A DNA stretch of 64,000 nucleotides from a bacterium (GTDB lineage: Bacteria > Campylobacterota > Campylobacteria > Campylobacterales > Sulfurimonadaceae). The notes below the pieces were generated by a model. The model was not told where the DNA came from, did not search any database, and saw only the letters and a program-made list of their open reading frames with translations. Shown in pieces: positions 21,732-55,742 of the stretch. Within the stretch, counting starts at the first letter, position 1, and every line of letters begins with the position of its first letter. The stretch covers positions 1 through 64,000 of the forward strand of contig JAHJEG010000005.1 in NCBI GenBank assembly GCA_018825665.1, in the 5' to 3' direction. A program made the position numbers and the translations under genes.

Positions 21732-22922
21732 ATGAAAATTATTTTAAGTATTTTGCTGGCATTTACTGCGCTTTTTGCCGCCAAAGCAGTTGAGGTTGGT
21801 GAAAGATTTGAAGATTCACAAAAATGTAAGGCTTGTCATTTACACATAGTAAAAGACTGGGAAAAATCGTGGCATGCAAAATCTCACTATGAGAGTGATG
21901 AGTATTTTAAAGCTACAATAGACTATGTAAGCAGAAAAACAAGAAAAAGTCTCAACAGTGTCAAGGTACAATGTGCCACATGCCATAATCCGAGAATTTC
22001 TGTAACAAGCACCGGAATCGATTATGAGATAATGGCTGTTATGGAACTCGATAAAGACTCCAAAGTAAATCAGGCTTTAAAAAGTGATGCTATAGATGAG
22101 GGCATCAATTGTGTGGTGTGTCATAATATTGATAAAATTCATTCGGATAAAGATGAAAGTTTTAGAGGGATAAACCGCGTAGAATGGACGAAGTCGGGAA
22201 CTATGACAGGTCCTTATGATGACGCGATGTCGCCTTACCATAAAGTGGAACATCGTGATTTTATGGATAATAATTCAGACCAGTTATGTTTTGTTTGTCA
22301 CGCCAATGACAGGGCAGTAAAAGGCCTGGTATTTACAGATATGCAGAGTGAGTACAAAAAAAGTGACAAAGGGTGTGTAGACTGCCATATGGGGCCAAAA
22401 ACCATGGGTGTTGCCGCTACTTTGAAACTTGATAACGGAAAAGCAAAAAAACGGGAGATTAGAAGTCATGGATTTGCCGGGGGGCATGTTGCAAGCATGT
22501 GGGAAGATGCCCTAAATATTAATGCACGCCAAAAAGGAAACGATATCGTTGTTTCCATATCCAATCCTCAACCCCATAATATCCCTAGCGGTTTTGGCTC
22601 ACGAGAGTTGCTCTTGGAGATGGTCTTTAAAAAAGGTCATCAGGATATAGGAAACAAATCTATCTCTCTTACGCGTACATATACGAGCAAAAGGGATAAA
22701 CCGACTATACCTCATTTGGCTGTTAAAGCTTCGGAAGACCTGAGTATTCCCGCAAACGGCAAAAAAATATTAAAAGTTTCAAATGAAGCAGGAGCTACAA
22801 GCGTCGAGATTAAACTGTACTACCGTTTAGTAAATGATGAGGTACGCTCCATTTTAAAACTTAAAGACCCTATCTGGTCTGATAAAAGTTTTATAGCATC
22901 AAAAACTTTAAAACTCAAATAA
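21732..22922 (+). CDS. Periplasmic pentahaem c-type cytochrome
   Basis: A 396-residue exported cytochrome with signal peptide (residues 1-16) and five CxxCH motifs: CKACH, CATCH, CVVCH, CFVCH and CVDCH, all in the first two thirds. The C-terminal 150 residues carry no haem and look beta-rich. The arrangement resembles cytochrome c-554-type multihaem proteins; electron partners are unknown. It abuts argF with no gap, an unusual operon partner. The stop precedes a bidirectional terminator. One CCACATGCC (21976-21984) here is explained by the haem codons of CATCH. Confidence 0.88.
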   Translation: MKIILSILLAFTALFAAKAVEVGERFEDSQKCKACHLHIVKDWEKSWHAKSHYESDEYFKATIDYVSRKTRKSLNSVKVQCATCHNPRISVTSTGIDYEIMAVMELDKDSKVNQALKSDAIDEGINCVVCHNIDKIHSDKDESFRGINRVEWTKSGTMTGPYDDAMSPYHKVEHRDFMDNNSDQLCFVCHANDRAVKGLVFTDMQSEYKKSDKGCVDCHMGPKTMGVAATLKLDNGKAKKREIRSHGFAGGHVASMWEDALNINARQKGNDIVVSISNPQPHNIPSGFGSRELLLEMVFKKGHQDIGNKSISLTRTYTSKRDKPTIPHLAVKASEDLSIPANGKKILKVSNEAGATSVEIKLYYRLVNDEVRSILKLKDPIWSDKSFIASKTLKLK

Positions 22923-37117: not shown

Positions 37118-38287
37118 ATGTTTACTCCAACAAAACCCAAAAACTATTTTTTATCTCAGGTTCACCAGCCGTTTTTTCTTTTTGGTGTCATCTATGCGGT
37201 TGTTGTTATGCTGCTGTTTATGCTTTCCTATAAAGGGATTCTCACGCTTAGGGTGGATACGCTCTCCTTTCACAGCTACTCACTGATCTATGTCGTATTC
37301 ACGCAGTTTTTTACGGGGTTTATATTTACGACCTTTCCAAGGTTTACCCAGGGTGAGGTGATCGGGCAAAAGAGTTATATGCGTGTTTTTATCATCCACC
37401 AAGCAGGTTCGCTGCTCTTTGTCCTTGGTTCGGTATATTCCATCTATATGCTTTATGGCGGCTTGTTCTTTTTGTTTTTTGCCAACAGCATGATCGTAAA
37501 CATATTGCAAAAAATCTATATGCAGAGCCATACCAGCCTGAGAAGCGATCCCAGGTGGATTCTCGTCGGTTTTTATTTCGGTGTTTTTGGTCACTTCCTG
37601 TTTATATTGTCTTTTTTACAGCTTGGGGTCAATGCCGCTCCTTTTGCCTTGAATCTTTATCTTGTCTTTGTCACTTTTTCTGTAGCCCAAAGGATGGTGC
37701 CTTTTTTTAGCCACTCCTTCGCCCCGAAAAATGAGAATTTTGCTCCGATTGTTTTTATAGGGCTGCTCCTAAAAGTAGTCGCGAACTATCTCTCGCTTGT
37801 GTATGTGGAATCGATTATCGATATTGCCCTTGGACTTTATATCGGATATGAGATAAAAAGATGGAAGCTCGGCTTTAAAAACGGTGCCGCAATATTAAAG
37901 ATACTTCATCTGTCTCTCTATTGGCTTCTCGTCTCTTTGATTTTGGGAGCCGTATTTCATCTTTTAGAGGGTGTATTTGGTTTAAACTTTATGCAGATGC
38001 AGGTGCATCTTTTGGCTCTTGGTTTTGTAACGACCATGCTTATCGGGTTTGGAACCCGTGTTACTTTGGGTCATTCGGGTCAGCCTCCACATGCCGACGG
38101 TATTACGCTGAAGATTTTTTATATTCTTCAGGCTGTCGTCATCGGGCGAATCATATTCTCTATTGCCATGGGTGCCCAGACGCAGATGTTCTGGCTTTTT
38201 GATCTTTCCAGCGCACTTTGGCTTGTATTGTTTGTCTTTTGGGCACTGCGTTTTGGACCGGTTTTGACAAGGGCTAAAAAGCTTTGA
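37118..38287 (+). CDS. nnrS: NnrS-family haem/copper membrane protein (nitric oxide response)
   Basis: A 389-residue protein with about twelve membrane helices. Family signatures: HQPFFLFGV at the N-terminus, QRMVPFFSHSF, MQMQVHLLALGFVTTM and LIGFGTRVTLGHSGQPPHAD, with conserved histidines likely to bind metal. NnrS protects against nitrosative stress and is normally under NNR/FNR-type control. ATG 37118 has AAGGAAG upstream and a TATAAT around 37090. One motif copy (38086-38095) encodes PPHAD. Confidence 0.9.
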   Translation: MFTPTKPKNYFLSQVHQPFFLFGVIYAVVVMLLFMLSYKGILTLRVDTLSFHSYSLIYVVFTQFFTGFIFTTFPRFTQGEVIGQKSYMRVFIIHQAGSLLFVLGSVYSIYMLYGGLFFLFFANSMIVNILQKIYMQSHTSLRSDPRWILVGFYFGVFGHFLFILSFLQLGVNAAPFALNLYLVFVTFSVAQRMVPFFSHSFAPKNENFAPIVFIGLLLKVVANYLSLVYVESIIDIALGLYIGYEIKRWKLGFKNGAAILKILHLSLYWLLVSLILGAVFHLLEGVFGLNFMQMQVHLLALGFVTTMLIGFGTRVTLGHSGQPPHADGITLKIFYILQAVVIGRIIFSIAMGAQTQMFWLFDLSSALWLVLFVFWALRFGPVLTRAKKL

Positions 38288-39174: not shown

Positions 39175-39639
39175 GTGAAATTAGTAGAAGGTAAGTTAAA
39201 AGTAGTAAACGGCAAGAGAGTTGCGATTGTAAGCACAAGATGGAATCACTTTATAGTTGACAGACTCGTAGAAGGCGCGAAAGACGCATTCGCACGTCAT
39301 GGCGGAAATGAAGAGGACCTTACGCATGTTTTGGTTCCGGGTGCTTTTGAGCTTCCTATGGTTGTAGACCAGCTTCTTTCGAGCGGCAAATATGACGCTG
39401 TATGTGCTTTGGGCGCTGTTATCCGCGGAGCTACGCCTCACTTTGACTATGTTTCTGCTGAAGCGACAAAAGGTCTTGCCACAGTGAGTTTAAAATATCA
39501 GAAACCTGTATCTTTCGGTCTTTTGACTACGGACACTATAGAGCAGTCTATTGAGCGTGCGGGGACAAAAGCGGGTAACAAAGGTTTTGAAGCGATGACG
39601 GTTGTTATCGAACTTTTAGATTTATATGAGACTATGTAA
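39175..39639 (+). CDS. ribH: 6,7-dimethyl-8-ribityllumazine synthase
   Basis: A 154-residue lumazine synthase, penultimate step of riboflavin synthesis. Motifs: [36 protein letters not shown] and [17 protein letters not shown]. Start is GTG 39175 after AAGGAG. The stop overlaps the nusB ATG (TAATG). Confidence 0.96.
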
Positions 39640-40037
39640 TGGCGACTAGACATCAGGCAAGAATGGCAGTCGTCAGTTTGTTGTACGCTTTTGATTTAGG
39701 AAACGGAAATATAGCCCAACACTCGGATGAGATCTTGGAAGAGAAAAAAATCCGTAACAAGCAAAAAGATTTCGCAATGGGTCTTTACGAGGGTGTTATG
39801 CAAAATCTTGAGGCTGTCGACAAGGCGATAATCGAGCATTTAAAAGAGTGGGATTTTGAGAGACTCGGAAGCATTGAACGGGCAACTTTAAGACTTGCTT
39901 CTTATGAGATACTTTTTGGTGAACTTGATTCTGCCGTTGTTATCAATGAAGCGGTAGAGATTACCAAAGCATTCGGAACTGAACAGTCTCCAAAATTTAT
40001 CAACGGTGTTCTTGACGCAATATCAAAAGATAAATAA
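39639..40037 (+). CDS. nusB: Transcription antitermination protein NusB
   Basis: A 132-residue all-helical protein that joins NusE on boxA of rRNA transcripts. Motifs: ATRHQARMAVVSLLYAFDLG, LGSIERATLRLASYEILF and VVINEAVEITKAFG. Overlaps ribH by one base; the cytochrome gene follows after eight bases. Confidence 0.95.
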   Translation: MATRHQARMAVVSLLYAFDLGNGNIAQHSDEILEEKKIRNKQKDFAMGLYEGVMQNLEAVDKAIIEHLKEWDFERLGSIERATLRLASYEILFGELDSAVVINEAVEITKAFGTEQSPKFINGVLDAISKDK

Positions 40038-40045
40038 AAGTCATT

Positions 40046-42454
40046 ATGCTGAAGTTTGCCCTTTCATTTTTGTTTTTTTGTACGCTTGTATCGGGGGCAA
40101 ACGAATGTATTACATGCCATAAAGGGATAGAACCCATTCGCGAGGAAAACTCGGGGATGATGCGGGCTATACTTGAAGTGGCACAAAAAGCAGGATATGA
40201 AGGCAATGACTGTATCGTCTGCCACGGAGGCAATCCGACTGCCAAAACGAAAAACGAAGCACATTCGGGCACGGTAGAATACTTTAAGAATAACAAGGGT
40301 CCAAAAGAGTATTATCCCGCGCCCGGCAGTACCTGGATCAATCACAACACATGCGGGATGTGCCACGAAAATCAGGTGAACTCCCAAATGAATTCTCTTA
40401 TGATGACCGAACAGGGAAAGATTCAGGGCGCTCTTTGGAGTTTTGGAGCTAAAAACGGCTACGAGCACGATATAGGAAACTACAAAACAAAAAACCCGCA
40501 AGACCCACATAAACGCCTCGGAACTGATTCTTACAAAAAATATATGGATAAACTCTCACGTATGGAGCCTCAGGCATTTCCAAAAGAGATGCAGGAACTG
40601 CCGGATGCACCGACAGCCGAAGAAGTTGAAAAAGACCCCTCTTTGGCAGTGTATACGTATCTCCGCCAGGAGTGTCTGCGATGCCATACCGGTTCAAAAG
40701 GGCGTTTGGTTCGGGGTGATTACAGGGGTATAGGCTGTGCCTCCTGCCATATTCCGTACTCCAACAACGGCTATTATGAGGGAGATGACAAGAGTATAGA
40801 CAAAAAAAATCCTGGGCATCTTCTGGTGCACTCCATTCAGTCTTCCCGCGGGACAAAGGTGAAAGTGCATGAACAAGAGTATTCGGGTGTTCCGGTCGAG
40901 ACATGTTCCACATGCCATAATCGCGGAAAGCGTATAGGTGTATCATATCAGGGTTTGATGGAGCAAGCTTATTCTTCCCCCTTTGACGATGAGGGAAATG
41001 AACAGCCTAAGCTCCATACGAAACGATATATGCATATGCAAGAAGATATCCATTTTCAAAAAGGGATGCTTTGTCAGGACTGTCACACATCCAACGATAT
41101 GCACGGTGACGGATTTTTAAGCGGGGCAAATCTTGCAGCCGTTGAGGTGGAGTGTCAGGATTGTCATGGAACTACAAAGGCTTATCCTTGGGAACTGCCT
41201 CTTGGATATTCGGATGAGTTTAACACAACTGCAATGACAGGAGAGGCCAGGGGAACGACCAAAACGGTATCCGAGTATCTTAAACAGGGCAGTGTGAGTG
41301 AAGCAAATGAGGGGTATTTACTTACCGCCAGAGGGAACCCTTTCGTCCATGCCACCCGAGTCGGCGAACAAGTGAAAATAGAGCTTGCAAGCGGCAAAGA
41401 TATACTTTTGACACCTCTTAAAAAGTTAAAAGAGGAGGAAAAACTCTCCAAAAAAGGGCTTTTAGCCATGGACGGTATAGCTGCGCATAATGACAATATG
41501 GAATGCTACACCTGCCACGCTGCCTGGGCTCCCCAGTGTTACGGCTGCCATGTGAAGATCGACTACTCCAAGGGAAAACAAAATCCGGATTATCTCAAAG
41601 CTTCCCATGATCAGGATATCCACGGAAGAACAGGCGGGATGAAGGATCTTAAAAAGTATCTTGTAGACGGAGAGGTAACCGAGAGCAGAAGTTTTATGCG
41701 CTGGGAAGATCCCCCCTTGTCTCAAAACGGTGAAGGGCGTATCAGCCCTACGATCCCTGGATGTCAGACTACGATTACCGTGATTGGAAAAGATGGAAAA
41801 GCACTTTTGCAAAACCATATCTTTAAAGTTCCACATGCCGAGGGTGCCGCAGAAGAAGGACAAAATGCTATAGATATGTCCCCCGTTCAGCCGCATACCA
41901 TTACCAAAGAGGCGAGAACATGTGAGAGCTGTCATACGAATCCAAAATCCATGGGGATGGGAATAAGCGGTTCAAAAACCACAAAAGACCCATCAATGAA
42001 AACTATTGTGGATATTATGAGTGCGGATGCAAAAGTGATGCCGGGCATACTCGATACTCAAATCGAAGCGATACCCAATCTGCAGTTTGATTATTCAAGA
42101 TTTTTGGATGAAAATGCAACGCAGCTTCAAACAGTCGGACATCACTTTACGCTTTCGGGGCCCTTGAGCAAAGCACAACGCGACAAGCTCGATAGAAGCG
42201 GAATCTGTTTCTCCTGTCACCAGGATATCCCCAAGGGAGATCTGGGCGTATCTGCTTTGAATCATATGGCGGAGATGGCGGAGATAAACATCGACAACAC
42301 GAGGCATAAAGAGATAGTAAATAAGAGCTTAAAAATCTCAGCTTGGACACAGCTCTTAGGTGGAATTATTACAGGAGTGCTTATTATGCTGTTTGTATAT
42401 TACAAATTTATAAAAGAAGCGCCCCAAAATCCAAGAAACAAAGGATGGAAATAG
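40046..42454 (+). CDS. Membrane-anchored dodecahaem c-type cytochrome
   Basis: An 802-residue periplasmic cytochrome with twelve CxxCH motifs: CITCH, CIVCH, CGMCH, CLRCH, CASCH, CSTCH, CQDCH twice, CYTCH, CYGCH, CESCH and CFSCH. The signal peptide is residues 1-18 and one membrane helix lies near 775-795 (QLLGGIITGVLIMLFVYY), with a short basic tail inside. It should pass electrons between quinone-side and periplasmic partners or act as a terminal reductase; no substrate is assigned. It is followed with one-base overlap by a DUF302 protein. Two motif copies lie inside (40906-40916, partly explained by CSTCH, and 41829-41839). Confidence 0.9.
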   Translation: MLKFALSFLFFCTLVSGANECITCHKGIEPIREENSGMMRAILEVAQKAGYEGNDCIVCHGGNPTAKTKNEAHSGTVEYFKNNKGPKEYYPAPGSTWINHNTCGMCHENQVNSQMNSLMMTEQGKIQGALWSFGAKNGYEHDIGNYKTKNPQDPHKRLGTDSYKKYMDKLSRMEPQAFPKEMQELPDAPTAEEVEKDPSLAVYTYLRQECLRCHTGSKGRLVRGDYRGIGCASCHIPYSNNGYYEGDDKSIDKKNPGHLLVHSIQSSRGTKVKVHEQEYSGVPVETCSTCHNRGKRIGVSYQGLMEQAYSSPFDDEGNEQPKLHTKRYMHMQEDIHFQKGMLCQDCHTSNDMHGDGFLSGANLAAVEVECQDCHGTTKAYPWELPLGYSDEFNTTAMTGEARGTTKTVSEYLKQGSVSEANEGYLLTARGNPFVHATRVGEQVKIELASGKDILLTPLKKLKEEEKLSKKGLLAMDGIAAHNDNMECYTCHAAWAPQCYGCHVKIDYSKGKQNPDYLKASHDQDIHGRTGGMKDLKKYLVDGEVTESRSFMRWEDPPLSQNGEGRISPTIPGCQTTITVIGKDGKALLQNHIFKVPHAEGAAEEGQNAIDMSPVQPHTITKEARTCESCHTNPKSMGMGISGSKTTKDPSMKTIVDIMSADAKVMPGILDTQIEAIPNLQFDYSRFLDENATQLQTVGHHFTLSGPLSKAQRDKLDRSGICFSCHQDIPKGDLGVSALNHMAEMAEINIDNTRHKEIVNKSLKISAWTQLLGGIITGVLIMLFVYYKFIKEAPQNPRNKGWK

Positions 42455-42885
42455 TGAAAAAGTTTTTGTTGTTTTTGGCATGTGCAATAACACTAAGTGC
42501 CAATGAGCTAATAATCAAACAAAGCAAATACGGTGTATCCCAGACTATACAGAATATTAAAGAGATAGTGACAAAAGAGGGGATGGGCGTATTTGCGATT
42601 ATAAACCATCACGGAAATGCCGGCATGGTGGGGATGGAGATGCGTGAGGCCAAGCTTATAATCTTTGGCAATCCCAAGATGGGAACAAAACTGATGCAGG
42701 AAAACATACTGCTGGGGCTTGATCTGCCTATGAAGGTATTGGTTTTCAGGGATAAAGATGAAAAAGTCAAACTGGCATACAGAAACGCTTCCTGGCTAAA
42801 AGATGCACATGCCCTGAAAAACGAAACACTTATACAAGAAGCAGACAAGAGATTAGACGATATTACAGACAAAGCAAGCAAATGA
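42454..42885 (+). CDS. Exported DUF302 protein
   Basis: About 143 residues with signal peptide (MKKFLLFLACAITLSA) and a DUF302 domain: INHHGNA, LIIFGNPKMGTKLMQEN, LDLPMKVLVF. DUF302 proteins are often found with sulphur and respiratory genes, but their role is unknown. The GTG at 42454 overlaps the cytochrome stop and is preferred because it gives a clean signal peptide; an ATG nine bases earlier is an alternative. Coupled to the cytochrome and, by ATGA, to mqnC. Confidence 0.85.
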   Translation: MKKFLLFLACAITLSANELIIKQSKYGVSQTIQNIKEIVTKEGMGVFAIINHHGNAGMVGMEMREAKLIIFGNPKMGTKLMQENILLGLDLPMKVLVFRDKDEKVKLAYRNASWLKDAHALKNETLIQEADKRLDDITDKASK

Positions 42886-43931
42886 ATAAAAGATTGACAA
42901 AAGAAGATGCACTGTATTTATTGAAAAATGCAGATCTTAAAGAACTCGGACGTATGGCAAGCGCCAGAAAGAAGGAACTTCATCCAAAAGGTGTGACAAC
43001 TTTTGTGGTTGACAGAAACATAAACTATACAAACATCTGTTGGGTGGATTGCAAGTTTTGTGCATTTTACAGACATGAAAAAGATGCGGACGCCTACGTG
43101 CTCACATTTGACGAGATAGACGCAAAGATAGATGAGCTTTTAGAGATAGGGGGAACGCAGATCCTTTTTCAGGGAGGAGTGCATCCCAAGCTTAAAATCG
43201 AGTGGTACGAGGATCTGGTGGAGCATATCCATACGAAATATCCTCAAATCACCATACACGGATTTTCCTCTATAGAGATAGATTTTATCGCCAAAGTCTC
43301 ACGTATCAGCGTAGAAGAAGTGCTTACCCGATTAAAAGCCAAGGGTCTGGCTTCTATACCCGGAGCGGGAGCGGAGATACTGAGCGATGAGGTCAGAGAT
43401 ATTATCGCACCTAAAAAAATAGATTCCGATGTGTGGGTGGATATACACAGAAAAGCGCATAAACTTGATATCAAGTCCACTGCTACGATGATGTACGGAA
43501 CGGTTGAGACGGATGAGGATATTATCGACCACTTTGATATGATACGCGAACTTCAGGATGAGACGGGCGGTTTTAGAGCTTTTATCATGTGGAGTTTTCA
43601 GGGACAAAACACGGAGCTTCTAAAACAGATTCCTGACATGGAAAAACCCTCATCCAACAGATATTTAAGACTTTTGGCTGTTGCAAGACTTTATCTGGAC
43701 AATGTCCAAAACATCCAAAGCTCATGGGTGACACAGGGTCCTTATATCGGCCAGATGGCTTTGAGATTTGGAGCCAATGATTTGGGTTCTACGATGATGG
43801 AAGAAAATGTCGTACGAAGTGCCGGAGCCGGTTTTAGAATGGCAAAGGAAGAGATGGTAAGACTTATACGCGATCTTGGTGAGACACCGGCTATCCGCAA
43901 TACAGCTTATGAAACTTTAGAACTTTTTTAA
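42882..43931 (+). CDS. mqnC: Cyclic dehypoxanthine futalosine synthase MqnC
   Basis: A 349-residue radical SAM enzyme of the futalosine menaquinone pathway. Cluster motif CWVDCKFC within NYTNICWVDCKFCAFYR; IGGTQILFQGGVHP and GAGAEILSDEVR are family features. The related MqnE has a different C-terminus, and this one keeps the MqnC pattern (MMEENVVRSAGAGF). Overlaps DUF302 by four bases; followed by an M16 gene as I recall for HP0656-HP0657. Confidence 0.93.
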   Translation: MNKRLTKEDALYLLKNADLKELGRMASARKKELHPKGVTTFVVDRNINYTNICWVDCKFCAFYRHEKDADAYVLTFDEIDAKIDELLEIGGTQILFQGGVHPKLKIEWYEDLVEHIHTKYPQITIHGFSSIEIDFIAKVSRISVEEVLTRLKAKGLASIPGAGAEILSDEVRDIIAPKKIDSDVWVDIHRKAHKLDIKSTATMMYGTVETDEDIIDHFDMIRELQDETGGFRAFIMWSFQGQNTELLKQIPDMEKPSSNRYLRLLAVARLYLDNVQNIQSSWVTQGPYIGQMALRFGANDLGSTMMEENVVRSAGAGFRMAKEEMVRLIRDLGETPAIRNTAYETLELF

Positions 43932-47741: not shown

Positions 47742-48224
47742 TTAAAGTTTTTGAATACTTCTTCTGAAAAATCTTACAGGCTCTGTAGCAACGGTCGTGT
47801 CATTGACGCTTACGGTGATATCCATCACTACGGAGCCGTTTTGCTCGGGGGTAGTTACCGTCGCATAGTCTGCATTTGCAATTGCTGCACATGGCGAGGG
47901 AGCGGTATAGATGTATTGTAGGCTGATATTAATATCAAAATAATCAGCGGTGCCGTCTCCATCAAGATCTGGAGAAAATATCAGGTCGTTTAGATGGGTG
48001 CAGCTTCCATCCTGTGCAATTCTAAGCAAGGCATACTCCGCCGCACTTTTGGAAAGCAGTACCGCCTGTTCATGGATATACAGGTCGGTTGTTCTTTTTG
48101 TTGTTTGTGATGTAAGAGACAGCGCGATTGCCATAATCGTAGCTATAATGACGATTACGGCAATCGCAATAATCATTGCCATTGCGTTTCGAGAAGATTT
48201 TAAAAGATTGTTTTTTCTTTGCAT
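47742..48224 (-). CDS. PilX/MshP-like minor pilus-assembly protein
   Basis: A 160-residue protein with a hydrophobic N-terminal segment (AMAMIIAIAVIVIIATIMAIALSL) followed by a polar region with a cysteine pair. The topology is that of MshP/PilX minor pseudopilins, which lack the Phe-Thr-x-x-Glu cleavage site. Last gene of the operon; its start overlaps the preceding pseudopilin by 25 bases. Assignment rests on position and topology. Confidence 0.7.
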   Translation of the reverse strand: MQRKNNLLKSSRNAMAMIIAIAVIVIIATIMAIALSLTSQTTKRTTDLYIHEQAVLLSKSAAEYALLRIAQDGSCTHLNDLIFSPDLDGDGTADYFDINISLQYIYTAPSPCAAIANADYATVTTPEQNGSVVMDITVSVNDTTVATEPVRFFRRSIQKL

Positions 48225-49102
48225 AAAGAGTACTCCTCAACTAAATCACTTTTTGTACATACCTGTATCTTTACCACGGAGCCCGCAGCCATAAACTGAA
48301 AAGTACTTACATTCTCCATGATTACAGATTCATTGCCGTCCGTATACGCTTCACCCTGCCAAGGCTGGTAATTGTAATGCAAGACCAAATTACCCATTTT
48401 GCTTGTCGTATTGTAATCTTCAATAGATATCGCATAGGCACTCCAGGCTAATTGGTAGTACTCATAAATATCGATACCGCTGAAATTATCCACTGCCGGA
48501 GCAAACTGGGTTATATCTCCCGCAACATCGACAACGGGATGCATAGCCCCCTCTTGTAAATCTATAGCAGTGGTATTGCCGTCCCAGGCATAGTCTGTTT
48601 TGATATCACTGTTTGAACCGATAAAATAAAGGGCTGCATCATCAATTGTGGCTGTTGAATGAGACAATATTTGTATCAGAGCATCTGCAGCGCTTGTATT
48701 CGTTTCCGGAGAAACTAAGATGCTGTTTGTGGCATTGGGGTGGTTCAAATCTACGATACCGCTCCAATAAGGGGTGGAATCTCCACGAAATCCTGCTATA
48801 TCCGCACCGACCCATTCCAAAACCGTGTAACTGCTGGCAACAGTTGGATCTACGCCTGCCAGAGCTTCAAATGTTCCGTCGGCTTTTTTGGCGATTATCG
48901 AGTCTTTTATGCGGTATTGAAGTCTTGCAGCTATTGATTCGACCGCAAACTGGCTATTGGACTGCAGGGTATGGTTTATATTTGAGAATATAAAGCTTTT
49001 ATATGCCTGAGCCAAAAATTCCACTCCGAATTTTCCAAGAATTCCCATAATTACAATAACAAAGAGAAGTTCGAGCATTGTAAAGGCACTGCGGTTTATC
49101 AT
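48200..49102 (-). CDS. Type IV pseudopilin (MshO-like)
   Basis: A 300-residue prepilin with leader MINRSA followed by FTMLELLFVIVIMGILGKFG; Glu5 is present and Ala rather than Gly precedes the cleavage point, as is common in this phylum. The large C-terminal domain is unrecognised. Size and place before the MshP-like gene fit MshO. The ATG overlaps the previous stop (TGATG). Confidence 0.82.
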   Translation of the reverse strand: MINRSAFTMLELLFVIVIMGILGKFGVEFLAQAYKSFIFSNINHTLQSNSQFAVESIAARLQYRIKDSIIAKKADGTFEALAGVDPTVASSYTVLEWVGADIAGFRGDSTPYWSGIVDLNHPNATNSILVSPETNTSAADALIQILSHSTATIDDAALYFIGSNSDIKTDYAWDGNTTAIDLQEGAMHPVVDVAGDITQFAPAVDNFSGIDIYEYYQLAWSAYAISIEDYNTTSKMGNLVLHYNYQPWQGEAYTDGNESVIMENVSTFQFMAAGSVVKIQVCTKSDLVEEYSLCKEKTIF

Positions 49103-49722
49103 CAGTAGCTCCTCTTGTAATAATCAACTTCACCTATGTTGGCACTATAGGTTACCAAAGAAGTGATTATATCCCCGTCTGAATTTTTAATACTCACTGC
49201 AATGCGTTTTATATCGGGATTGTTTGCAATGCCAAAGTCGGCATCGGGCGTTATTGTTATTTTACTTGTATAGGCATTTTTGTACCCCGATTCTCCGGGA
49301 GTGTTGTTGATAAAAATATTCTCATAGTTTGCCTGATGCATATCATCGAGGGAATCATTGGCATTGATATTTGCATTTGAGGCTCCGGTGCCACCATTGT
49401 CAAGGCATCTTCTGTGTAAGGGCTGGTCTATGTGACCGGGTCTTAGTCTATATCTTGGTGAAGATGTATTGTTGTCGCAATCTCCCGTCGTATCTATAAC
49501 CCTCGCCAAAGTTGCACCCGCTTCTATCGAATTGTCATCCCAATTTGCGGTTGTAACCTGGTTTAATTCCGTCGTGGCTGCGAAGATAGCTTCTTGAACG
49601 ATATTGCTATCTATGGCAGAAGAGAGTACAGTCGTCATCCTGGGAAGGGAAATAACAGCTATCGCAATGATGACAATCGCAAAGATAAGCTCTATCATCG
49701 TGAATGCATATCTCTTTACCAC
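49102..49722 (-). CDS. Type IV pseudopilin, 206 residues
   Basis: Prepilin leader MVKRYA then FTMIELIFAIVIIAIAVIS with Glu5. The C-terminal domain has two cysteines. The GTG start at 49722 overlaps the end of the giant MshQ-like gene (ATGTGGTAA). Likely a minor pseudopilin of the same fibre. Confidence 0.82.
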   Translation of the reverse strand: MVKRYAFTMIELIFAIVIIAIAVISLPRMTTVLSSAIDSNIVQEAIFAATTELNQVTTANWDDNSIEAGATLARVIDTTGDCDNNTSSPRYRLRPGHIDQPLHRRCLDNGGTGASNANINANDSLDDMHQANYENIFINNTPGESGYKNAYTSKITITPDADFGIANNPDIKRIAVSIKNSDGDIITSLVTYSANIGEVDYYKRSY

Positions 49723-52700
49723 ATAAGTCTCCTGTTGGTTTTAGTAGATGCATTTGGATTTGTCGTCGTATTGGTTTCACGCATTCCGGCCCATGAAGCA
49801 GAATCACCCAGGAATTCGACTTCAAACTCATTGCTGGTAGCAGCGTTATATTTATTAAATATCAGCCAGCTCGATGCATTGTTTTGCATCGTAGTCTTAT
49901 ACGGATAGCCTTTTGTGGCCGATGCATTGTAGGTGAGATTTACCGTCTCAGGATTCGTGGCAGACGCAGCGCCTGCACTTACAATGTTGAGTCCGTTTTT
50001 TTGTACTATATTTGAGATATTTCCGTCATTGGCAACAACATGGGCGGCGTTTGTAAACCATCTCGGATCATCTGAAAATGTAGAGGCAGTTCCGTTTGGC
50101 AGCAGTGATTTGTCACATGTGTTTCCGTTTGGATCGGTTCCAAAACAGTAAGACTCATAGTAGATAAGGGCAGAACCGTTGTTGCCGGTAATCATGGTTC
50201 TTGGAGAATGCGTACGCCCATACACAAAAGTAGTATTGTTGAGAGCCGTTGCATTCCCCGCTACATTTGCCGCATTGCCTGATGTGGCTGCGGTGTATAC
50301 GGAGCTGGCAGTCACAGTTAGGGTATTTCCGTTTACAAGGACAGGATTCAGTTCATTGTTTACAGTTCTGTTGAAATTGAACATAAGTTTTTTGGAGTCA
50401 TTGCTTTCGTTCCATGGAACCGTAAGCGCGCCGTTGGCAAAACCAAGGTTGAGTGTTTCATTGATATCATCTTGATGTGATGTCATACCCGCTACTGCAG
50501 GAACATTTATGAATATGTCCACAGGGTTTTCCCAGGAATTACTGTCGAAATTATTTGTAGTATCGCCTGCTGAGTTTTTAGCTTCTATCGTCAAGGCAAT
50601 ATGTGCAGACATATTAAGGTCGTTTGAGATGTAGGTATAGTTTGAATCATTGTTATTATGCAGGGTGATTCCGGCAAAAGAAAAATAGCTTGGAATAAAA
50701 GTGGCATTCACATCGCCACATACCCATGCACCGCTCGCAGAACACTCAGGAAGCGTGTCTGCGTTGTTTATATCTATCTGAGCCCATGTCTTGTCTATAA
50801 GTTTGAGATTGACCTGTCCAACATCGGAGAAGCTCATTTTTACTACGTCCAGTGCTTCTCCCGAGATGATATTAAAGGCGTACAGGGCATCGAAATTTAA
50901 ATCCCCCGCAAGTGTCCCTGATCCGTCTGAGCCATCCGGATTATAGAGCAGCAGTTCATTCTCAAGTATCGAATTTGCACCAAGTACATCATAACCTATA
51001 GTTGCAGTCGTTGCAGAGGCCTGTGCCGCCGTAAGTGAGAACATATAATTTTGACCGGCGGTTAAGAGTTCTATATCTTCTCCCGCAGGGGTACCTAAAA
51101 TAAATCTGTCCGGACGAATTGCAAAACTGTCAAGGGAACAGGCAAATTTAGTACCGCCATTGTAGGCGACTTTAAATGAAACACTCTGACTGGCATTGTT
51201 ATGGCTCAGATTCAAAATCTTACTGCTTTCATTTGTAAAGGTAACATCGGCAGTGGCGGAGATGGAGGGCTGTGCGTCGCAGAGACTCTGCTTACAAGTT
51301 GCGTTGTCGCCACATGAAGGATAATCAGGTGTCGCAATCAAAGAAACCGTGACATCACCCGTATAAGCGCTGAGCGCATCATTTGTAGAGTTCAGGGAGA
51401 TCAGTTTTACATTAAAAGGTCTTGCAGCTACTTGTGTAACGAGCCATGTCTGATTGCTGCTTGCATCATTGAAATCGGAAGCTCCGCCTGTCTCATTCAC
51501 GACATTGAAGGCTCCTAATATTCCTGAAACGCCCAAGGATGTGTTAACATCCTTACAGATACCGATATTAAGAGGCGACTCATCCCCAAATCTAACACCC
51601 AGCAAGCTGTTTTCATAAGAGACCTTATAGATATTCTCTATGCTTATATCTCCTGATTGGAGCAGTTTTGTTTGGAAACTGACAAATGATTTGAGGCTGT
51701 CAGAACCCGTGACATTTGGAAGCAGCTGTCCCCCGTCCACCGAACTAGCACCGGTTCCTACTCTCCACTTCGTAGTGTCCGTGTCCGTAAAGTAATCCAC
51801 TTTGTCACTGCTGGATGTGTTGGGACTGTCTGTCTGTGCAGTGTAAACGGACTCACCTATATTTTTCATTAAAAATGTATTTGGAACATATTCAAGGTTT
51901 TGTGTATCTAGTTCCATCGTGATTTCAACTTTGTCGGCTATTTCAAGGTTACCATCAGCCGCATCTTTTTTCATATTGGATATCCAGGTGTTGACGGTAA
52001 TAGTGTCTCCGACGCTCACACTCTCAAGAACATTTCCGCTCGCATCCAAAAACTGCTGTCTGTAGCAGACTCTAGGTTCATAAAGCTCCGTGGTAAAGGC
52101 GACCATACTAGGATAATAGGCATCAGAAGATGATGTCATATTGATGGTCGCGCTTTGTTGGCCGTTTTGGATTATATTTAAGCCGCTTGTTCCGACATCA
52201 TGGTTTTGAATATCTATACCGGAGTTGTTTGCCAAACTTGGATCGGCTGTAAATCCGCTTGTAGAGGAGTTAAAGGCATTCGTGCTGTTGATTGGCTCTC
52301 CATCCAGATTAAGTTTGTCTCCCGTGTAGGCGATATCTCCCTCCCCTACAAAAAGAGAAAGGGTAGATGCGATATCTCCGCTTGTAGGAGTTAAAAAACC
52401 ATCCACCGTGATATCTACATTTTTATAGGCAGTTTGGGAGGAAACTCTTTTGTAGCCGTCAAAGACGGATATATTTTTTAGAGTTTCCGTGCTGCTTGCA
52501 GAGTTGTCCTGATAAATAACAACCAAAGACCATGCCCCAAAATAACCTAGGTTACTATGTTTCCCCTCTGTTGCTTTTATATTGGCTCCGGTGAACCATC
52601 CGTTTGCCTGGGAACCTGAGAGTCCAAGGAGCTCTGATACTTCATTAAAAGTGGAGTAGGTGTATTGGTTGCTGGAATATTCAAAGACATCGATCACATT

Positions 52701-55667
52701 TGGAAGAAGCTCAATTACAGTTCCATCAGGAGTTGTGAGTTTAGATGCAGAGGCTTGTAGGTCGGCTATCGTGTTATCCATACTCTTTGCCAAAAATCCC
52801 TGTGTATAAAAACCTGCCCAAACAATTTTTGCATTTGCGGGGATACCTGAGATTTCCGCTTTTGAAGAGTTTTGTGTTGTCGTGTCCGAATCTATATCAA
52901 TATAGCTTAGGTTCAAGTTATTGTTTGACTGTGTCGTAGCCTTACATGTGCTGCCCCCGTCTTTCCAGCATAAAACGGTATTTCCTATAACTTTTAGATT
53001 CCCCTTGATATTTCTTGTGTTTATAGGATTTCTTATAGTGAACTCTCTTTCCTGGCTTGTAATAGTGCTACATTCTCCCACCCCGTTTTGATCCAGACCC
53101 GTGCTGTCATAAACGAAGGTTTGATTATTTCTCATGACTATGTTGCCCTCTGCGGTGATACCGCCTTTCCAGCCGTCTGTGTTGTTTGAGTTTCCATCAA
53201 GATTGAAGTTTTTTTGCGTGTAGAAGAAAGCCGTTATGTCATATTGTCCGCTGCTGCTTGTAAAGGTGATATCCCCTCTTGAGAATATTATAAAATCAGA
53301 TGCCGTACCGTTATCATTCATAGTGATGGGATGACCGCCGAAAGTAGCTCCGTTTTCTAAAAATATACGTACCTGACCTTGTATCTCAACAACAAACTTA
53401 TCCCCGTGGTGAATCCACTCTCCGATATAGTAATCCCCGCTTTTGAAGATATATGTAACGTCACTTGTGGAACTTTGAAGAGATTTTATTTTCATATAGC
53501 TTGTACCCGAATCGTTGTAGACAGAGCCCGGGTCAAAGGTGACGGTAGTTTTTGCGTTTACGGTTATATCACCGTAGTCTGCATCGCCAAGGGTAGTGGC
53601 ACTTGTAATGCTGAGTGCCGCGGCATTGCTTGAGGCATAAAAAGGAACGGCAAACTTATCAAATTCAGGCGTATTCACATTACAGTCGACTCCGTCACAG
53701 CTTACCTTACTTGTAAGCGGTGAGGGATTGGTAGTTGTAGCAACGACAGAATCTACGTTAAGTATCGTTGTCCCGCTGCTGGCCGAACTAAGGTCTAGTG
53801 TTTGGTAGGTCGCTAAAGCACTCGGGAAGATACCGCACTGCGAGATAGCGGGATCTGTAACAGGAGGAGCACACTCTCCAAGTACACCGCTGTAGGTCGT
53901 TCCGTTTTTTACATAAGTAGCCTGCAGGGTACCGCTTGTACTGAAAAAACTGTTCATTATATCTATAAAGCTGCTGCCTTTATAGACACTGACGCTGCGA
54001 TTTTGATTTGCTGTTACCCCATTAAGCTCAAAAGTCCAGCCGCCGTTGTTAAACATACTGATGGGACCGATTGTGTTTCCATTGCTGTCCTCATTACAAT
54101 TGTCACCCTTTGCACCTGCGTCTACAGAACAATCATCAAAACTGCCAAAGGAGAATAGGCTCGATGTGTCAAAGTACACTATAACATTTTCAAGGCTGTC
54201 TGTGCCGTTTAGATTGTTTATAGGTGTTGTAGTTTGGCAGATTTGACCGGAGCGTCTACTGCTGACACAATTCTCGGTTGGAGTGCCATAACACATATCA
54301 TCGGCATTTGCAATGACACAGACCGTTTGATTGCTGCCGCTGTCTATCCCTTTTACACGGCTGTCATATGTAACCGAAGTGTACGCATCAAGATAGATAT
54401 TGTTTTTTGCAATGATAGCTCCGTTTACAGCGGCATTATTGCTGGCCAGGCGTACATCGCCTTCTGAAATGACCAATCCCGAGACTTTCGTATTTCCGTT
54501 GAGCTGGATTCCGTTTTTGGAATAAAGAAGGAATTTGGAAGGATCTCCCCCCTCGTTCATCTTCATACCCAGTCCGCTGCTGCTGTCGCTAAAAGAGCTG
54601 TAGGTAAAAATGCGGACGGTGCCGTCGCCTGTAGGGATTATTTGAACGTTGCTTCCGATGATAAGATTTTGGAAGTAGTAGTCACCGGGTGCAAGATAGA
54701 TGATTGAATTGTATTTGAAATTTACCGTACCATTGACTTTCATCGCGATGCGAGATTGTCTGTTTGTATCGATTTTTACAACACCGTTTTCGGTGATACT
54801 GAGCTCCCCGTTGATATAAATCGTATCGGCATGAATGTCGAAGTTTTGTACCTTGAGTCCCTGTGCGTAAAAACTGTCGGCGCTTGCAATATTTATCGAT
54901 GTATTGCCCGTACCTGCGTCTATACCGTCTTTAAACTTGTAGTCTCCGTTTGATCCGCCGATATTGAGCGTGGCTCCGTCTCCGCTCATTTTCCAGCTTC
55001 CGGCATCGATTGTCTTGGCATCGGGAAGATTGACCGTGGAGTTATCCCCCTGAGTGAGCCTTCGGGTCTGAAAGGAAGAGGCGTTGTTGAGTGTCAAAGA
55101 GGTTTGAGAGTTTATCCCTCCGCTGGCATCTTCAATCTCAACGGCATAGGAACTTGACTTATTGACAATCAGTTGGGAGTTTGTGTCATGGATTGCAAGT
55201 GATTTGATTTTGAATGTTGAAGTGTTGCTTTTGACATTCATCTTTACGGTTGCGTAACTGCGGACTTTGACATCATCAAATTCTTTTACATTGTTTTCGG
55301 TGGTATCGCTTGTGTAGTCTTTATCCGTCCTGCTGTTATTTCTGAATGACTGGTCTATACTAGGGCTTGAAGGACTCGGAGTGTTTAAAAAGCTGCTAAA
55401 TGAGATCGGTGCTCCATCTGCCGTACATCTTGTTCCCTGCGCTTTACAGGAATCCGAAGCGGTATCTGCCGCATTGACCACAAAAGAGGTGGAGAGGGCG
55501 CTGTCGGGATTGTTATAAATATAACTTTGTCCCCCGAAATTGATTCTGCTTGATGAACCGTAGGTGTTCACCGCATCATCGATACACATCCCTGAACCGG
55601 ATACGGCAAACACCATTGCAAGACCAAGAACGGCCGGCAGGCGCGTAAAATTTTTAAAAGCTTTCAT
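49716..55667 (-). CDS. Giant MshQ-like surface protein (DUF6701)
   Basis: About 1983 residues, exported by signal peptide (MKAFKNFTRLPAVLGLAMVFA). Two similar beta-rich modules (about residues 130-460 and 750-945) each contain a GDYYF/GDYYI repeat followed by glycine/asparagine-rich strands, like stacked beta-helix repeats. Then comes a region with DUF11-like character (SVGDTITVNTWISN to LEYVPNTFLMKN) and a C-terminal DUF6701 region, ending as in MSHA protein MshQ. The start at 55667 is fixed by AAAGGAGG. It is first in an operon with three pseudopilin-type genes, probably a fibre tip or adhesin. Confidence 0.82.
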   Translation of the reverse strand: MKAFKNFTRLPAVLGLAMVFAVSGSGMCIDDAVNTYGSSSRINFGGQSYIYNNPDSALSTSFVVNAADTASDSCKAQGTRCTADGAPISFSSFLNTPSPSSPSIDQSFRNNSRTDKDYTSDTTENNVKEFDDVKVRSYATVKMNVKSNTSTFKIKSLAIHDTNSQLIVNKSSSYAVEIEDASGGINSQTSLTLNNASSFQTRRLTQGDNSTVNLPDAKTIDAGSWKMSGDGATLNIGGSNGDYKFKDGIDAGTGNTSINIASADSFYAQGLKVQNFDIHADTIYINGELSITENGVVKIDTNRQSRIAMKVNGTVNFKYNSIIYLAPGDYYFQNLIIGSNVQIIPTGDGTVRIFTYSSFSDSSSGLGMKMNEGGDPSKFLLYSKNGIQLNGNTKVSGLVISEGDVRLASNNAAVNGAIIAKNNIYLDAYTSVTYDSRVKGIDSGSNQTVCVIANADDMCYGTPTENCVSSRRSGQICQTTTPINNLNGTDSLENVIVYFDTSSLFSFGSFDDCSVDAGAKGDNCNEDSNGNTIGPISMFNNGGWTFELNGVTANQNRSVSVYKGSSFIDIMNSFFSTSGTLQATYVKNGTTYSGVLGECAPPVTDPAISQCGIFPSALATYQTLDLSSASSGTTILNVDSVVATTTNPSPLTSKVSCDGVDCNVNTPEFDKFAVPFYASSNAAALSITSATTLGDADYGDITVNAKTTVTFDPGSVYNDSGTSYMKIKSLQSSTSDVTYIFKSGDYYIGEWIHHGDKFVVEIQGQVRIFLENGATFGGHPITMNDNGTASDFIIFSRGDITFTSSSGQYDITAFFYTQKNFNLDGNSNNTDGWKGGITAEGNIVMRNNQTFVYDSTGLDQNGVGECSTITSQEREFTIRNPINTRNIKGNLKVIGNTVLCWKDGGSTCKATTQSNNNLNLSYIDIDSDTTTQNSSKAEISGIPANAKIVWAGFYTQGFLAKSMDNTIADLQASASKLTTPDGTVIELLPNVIDVFEYSSNQYTYSTFNEVSELLGLSGSQANGWFTGANIKATEGKHSNLGYFGAWSLVVIYQDNSASSTETLKNISVFDGYKRVSSQTAYKNVDITVDGFLTPTSGDIASTLSLFVGEGDIAYTGDKLNLDGEPINSTNAFNSSTSGFTADPSLANNSGIDIQNHDVGTSGLNIIQNGQQSATINMTSSSDAYYPSMVAFTTELYEPRVCYRQQFLDASGNVLESVSVGDTITVNTWISNMKKDAADGNLEIADKVEITMELDTQNLEYVPNTFLMKNIGESVYTAQTDSPNTSSSDKVDYFTDTDTTKWRVGTGASSVDGGQLLPNVTGSDSLKSFVSFQTKLLQSGDISIENIYKVSYENSLLGVRFGDESPLNIGICKDVNTSLGVSGILGAFNVVNETGGASDFNDASSNQTWLVTQVAARPFNVKLISLNSTNDALSAYTGDVTVSLIATPDYPSCGDNATCKQSLCDAQPSISATADVTFTNESSKILNLSHNNASQSVSFKVAYNGGTKFACSLDSFAIRPDRFILGTPAGEDIELLTAGQNYMFSLTAAQASATTATIGYDVLGANSILENELLLYNPDGSDGSGTLAGDLNFDALYAFNIISGEALDVVKMSFSDVGQVNLKLIDKTWAQIDINNADTLPECSASGAWVCGDVNATFIPSYFSFAGITLHNNNDSNYTYISNDLNMSAHIALTIEAKNSAGDTTNNFDSNSWENPVDIFINVPAVAGMTSHQDDINETLNLGFANGALTVPWNESNDSKKLMFNFNRTVNNELNPVLVNGNTLTVTASSVYTAATSGNAANVAGNATALNNTTFVYGRTHSPRTMITGNNGSALIYYESYCFGTDPNGNTCDKSLLPNGTASTFSDDPRWFTNAAHVVANDGNISNIVQKNGLNIVSAGAASATNPETVNLTYNASATKGYPYKTTMQNNASSWLIFNKYNAATSNEFEVEFLGDSASWAGMRETNTTTNPNASTKTNRRLMW

Positions 55668-55742
55668 AACAGCCTCCTTTGAAGCAAAAAAAACAAGCAC
55701 ACAAAAAGTGGGCTCAGTAGCAATCATTACTATACATACTTA

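Follow-up and report, generated by a model that had tools for sequence, protein, structure and literature searches.

A distant ExtM-type 12-haem cytochrome of Sulfurimonas and its relatives with a candidate haem 10–cysteine pocket

Analysis of the window, a 64-kb stretch of Sulfurimonadaceae DNA, identified a gene for a large 12-haem cytochrome that is probably best read, at a probability of about 0.5, as a periplasmic multihaem redox enzyme of an ExtM-type branch, tethered to the inner membrane and carrying a pocket built from haem 10 and Cys573. This reading rests mainly on the repeated joint disappearance of these two elements among homologues. The cytochrome occurs in approximately 60% of the sampled Sulfurimonas genomes and in several other families, and the genus and its relatives play a major part in sulphur and nitrogen cycling at redoxclines and vents. 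The coupled loss indicates which residues to mutate and provides inactive controls from nature, which makes the function of the ExtM-type family directly testable.

Sequence features and family placement of the cytochrome

The features of the locus are listed below by their window coordinates.

39639..40037, + strand: nusB, upstream flank of the variable site (family match)
40046..42454, + strand: 12-haem ExtM-type membrane cytochrome gene, 802 aa (ORF, 12 CxxCH, NCBIfam ExtM match)
40046..40099, + strand: signal-peptide-like N-terminus, residues 1-18 (sequence; helix 2-15 in the model)
40106..40120, + strand: haem site 1, CITCH, residue 21 (motif)
40211..40225, + strand: haem site 2, CIVCH, residue 56 (motif)
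40352..40366, + strand: haem site 3, CGMCH, residue 103 (motif)
40673..40687, + strand: haem site 4, CLRCH, residue 210 (motif)
40736..40750, + strand: haem site 5, CASCH, residue 231 (motif)
40904..40918, + strand: haem site 6, CSTCH, residue 287 (motif)
41015..41017, + strand: His324 (conserved in haem-10 forms)
41072..41086, + strand: haem site 7, CQDCH, residue 343 (motif)
41153..41167, + strand: haem site 8, CQDCH, residue 370 (motif)
41504..41518, + strand: haem site 9, CYTCH, residue 487 (motif)
41537..41551, + strand: haem site 10, CYGCH, residue 498, proposed catalytic haem (co-loss with Cys573)
41762..41764, + strand: Cys573, non-haem cysteine in the motif PGCQ, proposed active-site thiol (co-loss with haem 10)
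41921..41935, + strand: haem site 11, CESCH, residue 626 (motif)
42206..42220, + strand: haem site 12, CFSCH, residue 721 (motif)
42341..42403, + strand: predicted C-terminal transmembrane helix, about residues 766-786 (hydropathy 1.94; model helix 751-789)
42454..42885, + strand: exported DUF302 protein, 143 aa from GTG, optional neighbour (Pfam PF03625)
42882..43931, + strand: mqnC, downstream flank of the variable site, ATG 42882 (family match)

The first-pass annotation had counted twelve CxxCH sites in the cytochrome; motif counting returned the same number at the same coordinates. Shuffling the 802 residues gave 0.03 such motifs on average and never more than 1, which excludes chance. 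The C-terminal anchor, also claimed earlier, is predicted here from a single hydrophobic helix, and export from a signal-peptide-like stretch. Within the mature part, Cys573 is the sole cysteine outside the CxxCH motifs, and the mass per haem is 7.4 kDa.

Pfam gave general cytochrome matches only. The NCBIfam model for ExtM (NF040943) matched the window cytochrome with 229 bits (E 8.7e-68), far under its curated cut-off of 800 bits, and the same profile matched 43 of 43 aligned homologues. Judged from these profile matches, the protein belongs to a stand-alone branch that is only distantly related to the other 12-haem ExtM proteins. The first-pass annotation had been unable to place it in a known reductase family; profile searches indeed found no clear match to a characterised reductase, but the cytochrome is placeable as a distant ExtM type. 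No description of it was found in the literature on Sulfurimonas, DUF302, ExtM and multihaem cytochromes.

Matches to the ExtM model were detected in 62 of 397 Campylobacterota genomes, counting together the two kinds of relatives found there, namely ExtM-like proteins of about 590 aa and stand-alone proteins of about 800 aa, the latter including the window protein. One operon (L049) encodes an ExtM-like protein together with a PhsA-like molybdoenzyme, a Rieske protein, an ExtP-like cytochrome b and an ExtN-like 8-haem protein. At three Campylobacterota loci (L138, L139 and L049), ExtM-like 12-haem proteins are joined with ExtN-like 8- or 10-haem proteins. The NCBIfam model for ExtO (NF040968, 416 positions) matches the same stretches as the ExtN model (415 positions) and looks as if it had been built on ExtN sequences, ExtO itself being a 14-kDa Rieske protein (PMC5877670).

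Named records among the near relatives of the window cytochrome were mostly Sulfurimonas. In a clade at about 44% identity the cytochrome has no C-terminal helix; here it is usually adjoined by two or three exported thioredoxin-fold proteins and a sensor kinase/response regulator pair (L086, L089, L090, L091, L094 and L095), and both kinds of neighbour are confined to this clade. CcsBA and SurA-like neighbours of some homologues were discarded as a functional clue, as only a handful of loci have them and simple synteny may account for their presence. The plasmid-borne relatives were likewise set aside: they are Sphingobium and Sphingopyxis proteins with about 30% identity over residues 320-506. 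One of these, on the Sphingobium plasmid pMSHV (L103), has 1329 aa, ten haems and a long C-terminal repeat region and is clustered with other cytochromes.

The window also encodes a pentahaem cytochrome (21732-22922, + strand) that matches the ExtKL model NF040886 below its cut-off (65 bits, E 4.8e-18), so that two Ext-like cytochromes, one 12-haem ExtM-type and one pentahaem ExtKL-like, lie within one 64-kb window. Homologues of the ExtKL-like gene, paralogues included, occur in 99 of 120 Sulfurimonas genomes; the gene is too widespread to be informative.

The structure model of the whole protein reached a mean pLDDT of 72.8 and a pTM of 0.73, and that of residues 326-722, based on 61 sequences, a pLDDT of 83.3 and a pTM of 0.79. 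In the latter, Cys573 sits in the beta-rich part that separates haem 8 from haem 11. In a Foldseek search of the PDB, neither the whole model nor that of residues 326-722 matched any entry below E 0.001. Using VIA-align against multihaem proteins, only 1sp3 was recovered, and weakly, with Z 5.6 over 195 aa (rmsd 5.8) for the whole model and Z 5.2 over 170 aa (rmsd 6.5) for residues 326-722; such Z values lie below those often reached by unrelated models and are a hint only. PDB sequence searches yielded local haem-pair matches only, and similarity to the NrfA profile was local, at haems 7-8 (E 0.02).

Joint loss of haem 10 and Cys573

Cys573 was present in all 56 homologues with haem 10 and in none of the 16 without it. 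The haem-10-less proteins include shortened, intact forms with 10 haems of about 680 aa (L104-L108), 754 aa (L114) and about 610 aa (L030, L110), in all of which haem site 4 has been lost alongside site 10. A further 10-haem group of 738-753 aa comes from other families (L096, L130-L132), and forms of 423-447 aa retain 7 haems (L051, L111, L112). Two loci (L113, L120) are true pseudogenes. The most precise natural variant, L016, is full-length (797 aa) and carries C498R, C501R and C573Y, with His324 lost as well; of the 187 positions showing at least 97% conservation, just two more are altered, P186A and D248G, and 181 are kept.

When the columns for haem 10, Cys573 and haem 4 are left out of the alignment, the resulting cytochrome tree shows five independent losses, with haem 10 and Cys573 disappearing together each time. 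The 610-aa and 7-haem groups are joined on this tree by long branches but stand apart on the housekeeping tree, which would raise the number to six. For five independent pairs, the sign test gives p = 0.0625, the lowest value attainable.

Of 151 conserved non-haem positions, those lost in all five groups other than L016 were V299, R548, C573, E122 and R220, while Arg296, Tyr309, Lys504 and His324 were lost in four of the five. His324 is found in 56 of 56 haem-10 forms and is missing or changed in five of the six haem-10-less groups; most haem-10-less forms still have the motif NGEG next to it. Such a pattern resembles the disappearance of a single pocket more than it does general decay. The dN/dS ratio is 0.05-0.06 for full forms, 0.13-0.19 for reduced forms and 0.078 for L016 against its sister; full and reduced forms are thus both under purifying selection. 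In Sulfurimonas, the reduced forms retain the membrane anchor.

The haem-10 motif CYGCH and the PGCQ cysteine also occur in the Campylobacterota ExtM-like proteins, whose core regions are 25-29% identical to the cytochrome. In a distant homologue from Sphingobium, the haem-10 motif is present and the PGCQ cysteine is not, so the coupling of the two is valid inside the ExtM-type family and not beyond it.

Genomic site and the DUF302 neighbour

Family matches verified that the cytochrome lies between nusB and mqnC, as first annotated. All Sulfurimonas copies with readable flanks occupy this nusB-cytochrome-mqnC site, with one exception (L109). Loci that have no cytochrome still show the gene order kdsA-ribH-nusB-mqnC-M16, with kdsA-ribH-nusB-mqnC intact at L053, L058, L061 and L064, and in other families the cytochrome is sited elsewhere, without mqnC. 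For these reasons mqnC is uninformative on the electron donor, and the earlier suggestion of menaquinone, drawn from the mqnC link, is not supported: mqnC only borders a site of variable content inside a housekeeping operon. The L109 exception belongs to genome G490, in which the copy at the usual site (L108) has no haem 10; L109 is a full 12-haem copy elsewhere, on a contig of 4262 bases, and groups on the tree with L093 from another family. It is possible that it represents regain by transfer, or contamination.

Other genes of the window include NnrS (37118-38287, + strand), located just upstream of the kdsA-ribH-nusB operon, and a 2003-aa ORF (49716-55727, - strand) for which a weak DUF7305 hit was the sole family match and which three prepilin-like ORFs adjoin (47742-49722); it is possibly a pilus-tip type protein.

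The DUF302 gene (PF03625, 63.5 bits, E 1.7e-17) is coupled to the cytochrome gene by one base, as had been proposed: the last base of the TAG stop (42452-42454) is the first base of the GTG start (42454). An in-frame ATG at 42445 offers an alternative start, and the end of the gene overlaps the start of mqnC (ATG 42882). This arrangement had been taken to define a compact module. Across 120 Sulfurimonas genomes, some incomplete and many represented by draft or metagenome-derived loci, the cytochrome was present in 73 and a close DUF302 in 42; 34 genomes had both, 39 the cytochrome only, 8 DUF302 only and 39 neither. In all 34 genomes with both, DUF302 lies directly downstream of the cytochrome. 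The DUF302-only loci (L054, L122-L128) occupy the same site where it could be read, the nusB frame of L124 and L127 having been missed by simple ORF choice.

With kinship ignored, the two genes are associated in the 120 genomes (odds ratio 4.25, p 9e-4). This raw association was rejected as evidence for pairing, since it vanishes on a housekeeping tree of five proteins from 55 genomes, with presence scored at the site itself. On that tree the cytochrome requires at least 10 changes and DUF302 at least 17, and the two traits are uncorrelated; among 9 independent pairs, 2.4 changed in the same direction and 1.9 in the opposite one. Beside the cytochrome in the other-family loci examined, no window-type DUF302 was detected. 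A two-gene module fed by menaquinol, with DUF302 as the obligate partner of the cytochrome, would suit the overlap in the window and the constant 3' placement in co-bearing genomes, but it is very improbable in view of the 39 and 8 genomes that have one gene without the other, the absence of correlation on the tree and the other-family loci. DUF302 is an optional gene beside the cytochrome and serves a use of its own. In Acidithiobacillia, a DUF302 protein is likewise found in a sulphur oxidiser and thought to be periplasmic (PMC5037610); there it adjoins sox genes, whereas here it adjoins a 12-haem cytochrome and mqnC.

Proposed function and comparison with known systems

We hypothesize that the cytochrome is held at the periplasmic face of the inner membrane by its one C-terminal helix, and that eleven haems would serve as a wire while haem 10 (CYGCH, residue 498) would be the catalytic haem. 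From the conservation pattern, the candidate catalytic pocket would comprise haem 10, the Cys573 thiol, His324, Arg220, Arg548 and Glu122, possibly with Arg296, Lys504 and Tyr309. The arginine, lysine, tyrosine, glutamate and histidine residues could form an anion-binding shell around haem 10, and Cys573 might be a haem ligand, as in TsdA and SoxAX, or lie adjacent to the haem. The substrate would most likely be a sulphur anion such as thiosulphate, a polythionate, polysulphide or sulphite, and the remaining haems would exchange electrons with the quinone/cytochrome c pool. DUF302 and mqnC would be operon neighbours outside the mechanism.

Sulphur chemistry is the most likely assignment, favoured because of the cysteine, the thioredoxin-fold and PhsA-like neighbours of relatives, and the organism; the one structural neighbour, the weak match 1sp3, is itself an octahaem tetrathionate reductase. 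Haems with His/Cys ligation are uncommon and are regarded as important for sulphur metabolism; TsdA has such a haem at its active site (PMC5146829). As to the direction of the redox reaction, our guess is reduction over oxidation at about 60:40. The shortened haem-10-less forms may have been selected as carriers only; in a TsdA paralogue, CccC, the cysteine is replaced and the protein is an electron carrier, a donor to an oxidase (PMC5146829). More tentatively, the protein may represent an undescribed, widespread Campylobacterota family of 12-haem enzymes with a new active site, made of haem 10 and the PGCQ cysteine 70 residues further on in a beta-rich stretch, acting on sulphur oxyanions or polysulphides and repeatedly reduced in nature, by loss of this site, to a plain carrier.

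The main competitor is a pure electron-transfer wire that links a quinol-oxidising complex to periplasmic reductases, with Cys573 as an axial ligand or structural thiol. The haem-10-less forms, under purifying selection and, in Sulfurimonas, still anchored, suggest that part of the function does not need haem 10, and the encoding of ExtM with Rieske and cytochrome b genes in the Geobacter ext cluster suggests electron transport (PMC5877670). We nevertheless regard a mere wire as less likely than an enzyme: a ligand role leaves the loss of Arg220, Arg548 and Glu122 unexplained, as well as that of Arg296, Tyr309 and Lys504 in most groups, and nearby genes encode no quinol-oxidising partner. In addition, the mass per haem falls in the range above 7 kDa associated with catalytic multihaem proteins (PMC7096707), a weak criterion given that some reduced forms also exceed 7 kDa.

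Respiration of metals or metalloids (selenite, tellurite, Mn(IV)), as for the Geobacter ext gene cluster, is suggested by the family name of the ExtM model and by the ExtKL-like cytochrome in the same window; a Sulfurimonas isolate is also cited in PMC11748539 as reducing Mn(IV) oxide with sulphide. It is improbable, however, as the operon contains no porin or outer-membrane cytochrome, the anchor is predicted to be inner-membrane and the ExtM score is far below cut-off; moreover, the selenite/tellurite phenotype was shown for the porin ExtI and not for ExtM (PMC5877670). Slightly less probable again is a nitrogen-oxide or hydroxylamine reductase of the NrfA, HAO or octahaem type, which would agree with the local NrfA similarity and with the sole structural neighbour, 1sp3, whose type reduces nitrite and hydroxylamine according to a reference title in PMC8840924. 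The window cytochrome has 12 haems and no CxxCK, the motif typical of NrfA except in some clades whose first haem has CxxCH, and Pfam and NCBIfam returned no NrfA or HAO family match. The conserved active-site-like cysteine, moreover, is not known as a feature of NrfA.

This proposed enzyme can be set against several known systems. Octahaem tetrathionate reductase of Shewanella oneidensis (1sp3) has 8 haems against 12 here, and a PDB search found no sequence match between the two. MccA sulphite reductase of Wolinella is likewise a large multihaem protein of Campylobacterota, and cytochrome c synthase-like genes adjoin some homologues of the window cytochrome; it differs in haem number and in its CX15CH haem site, which the window protein does not have. 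TsdA and SoxAX also tie a conserved cysteine to one c-type haem, the cysteine ligation being putative here, but they are small di-haem proteins of another type for which no sequence match to the window cytochrome was found. Within its own family, the comparison is with ExtM (NF040943; GSU2935, in the extHIJKLMNOPQS cluster), in Geobacter sulfurreducens a 68-kDa protein with 12 haems whose gene accompanies those of Rieske and cytochrome b proteins (PMC5877670). It likewise has 12 haems and is alignable over haems 4-11, and the 12 CxxCH sites follow the same order in the ExtM family, as compared with the Campylobacterota ExtM-like proteins rather than with Geobacter ExtM itself. The window cytochrome is about 200 aa longer and adds the C-terminal membrane helix. 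The ExtM context of ExtN, the Rieske protein ExtO and the cytochrome b ExtP is absent from the locus, which is flanked by nusB and DUF302/mqnC; clusters of the ExtN/ExtO/ExtP type are present elsewhere in Campylobacterota.
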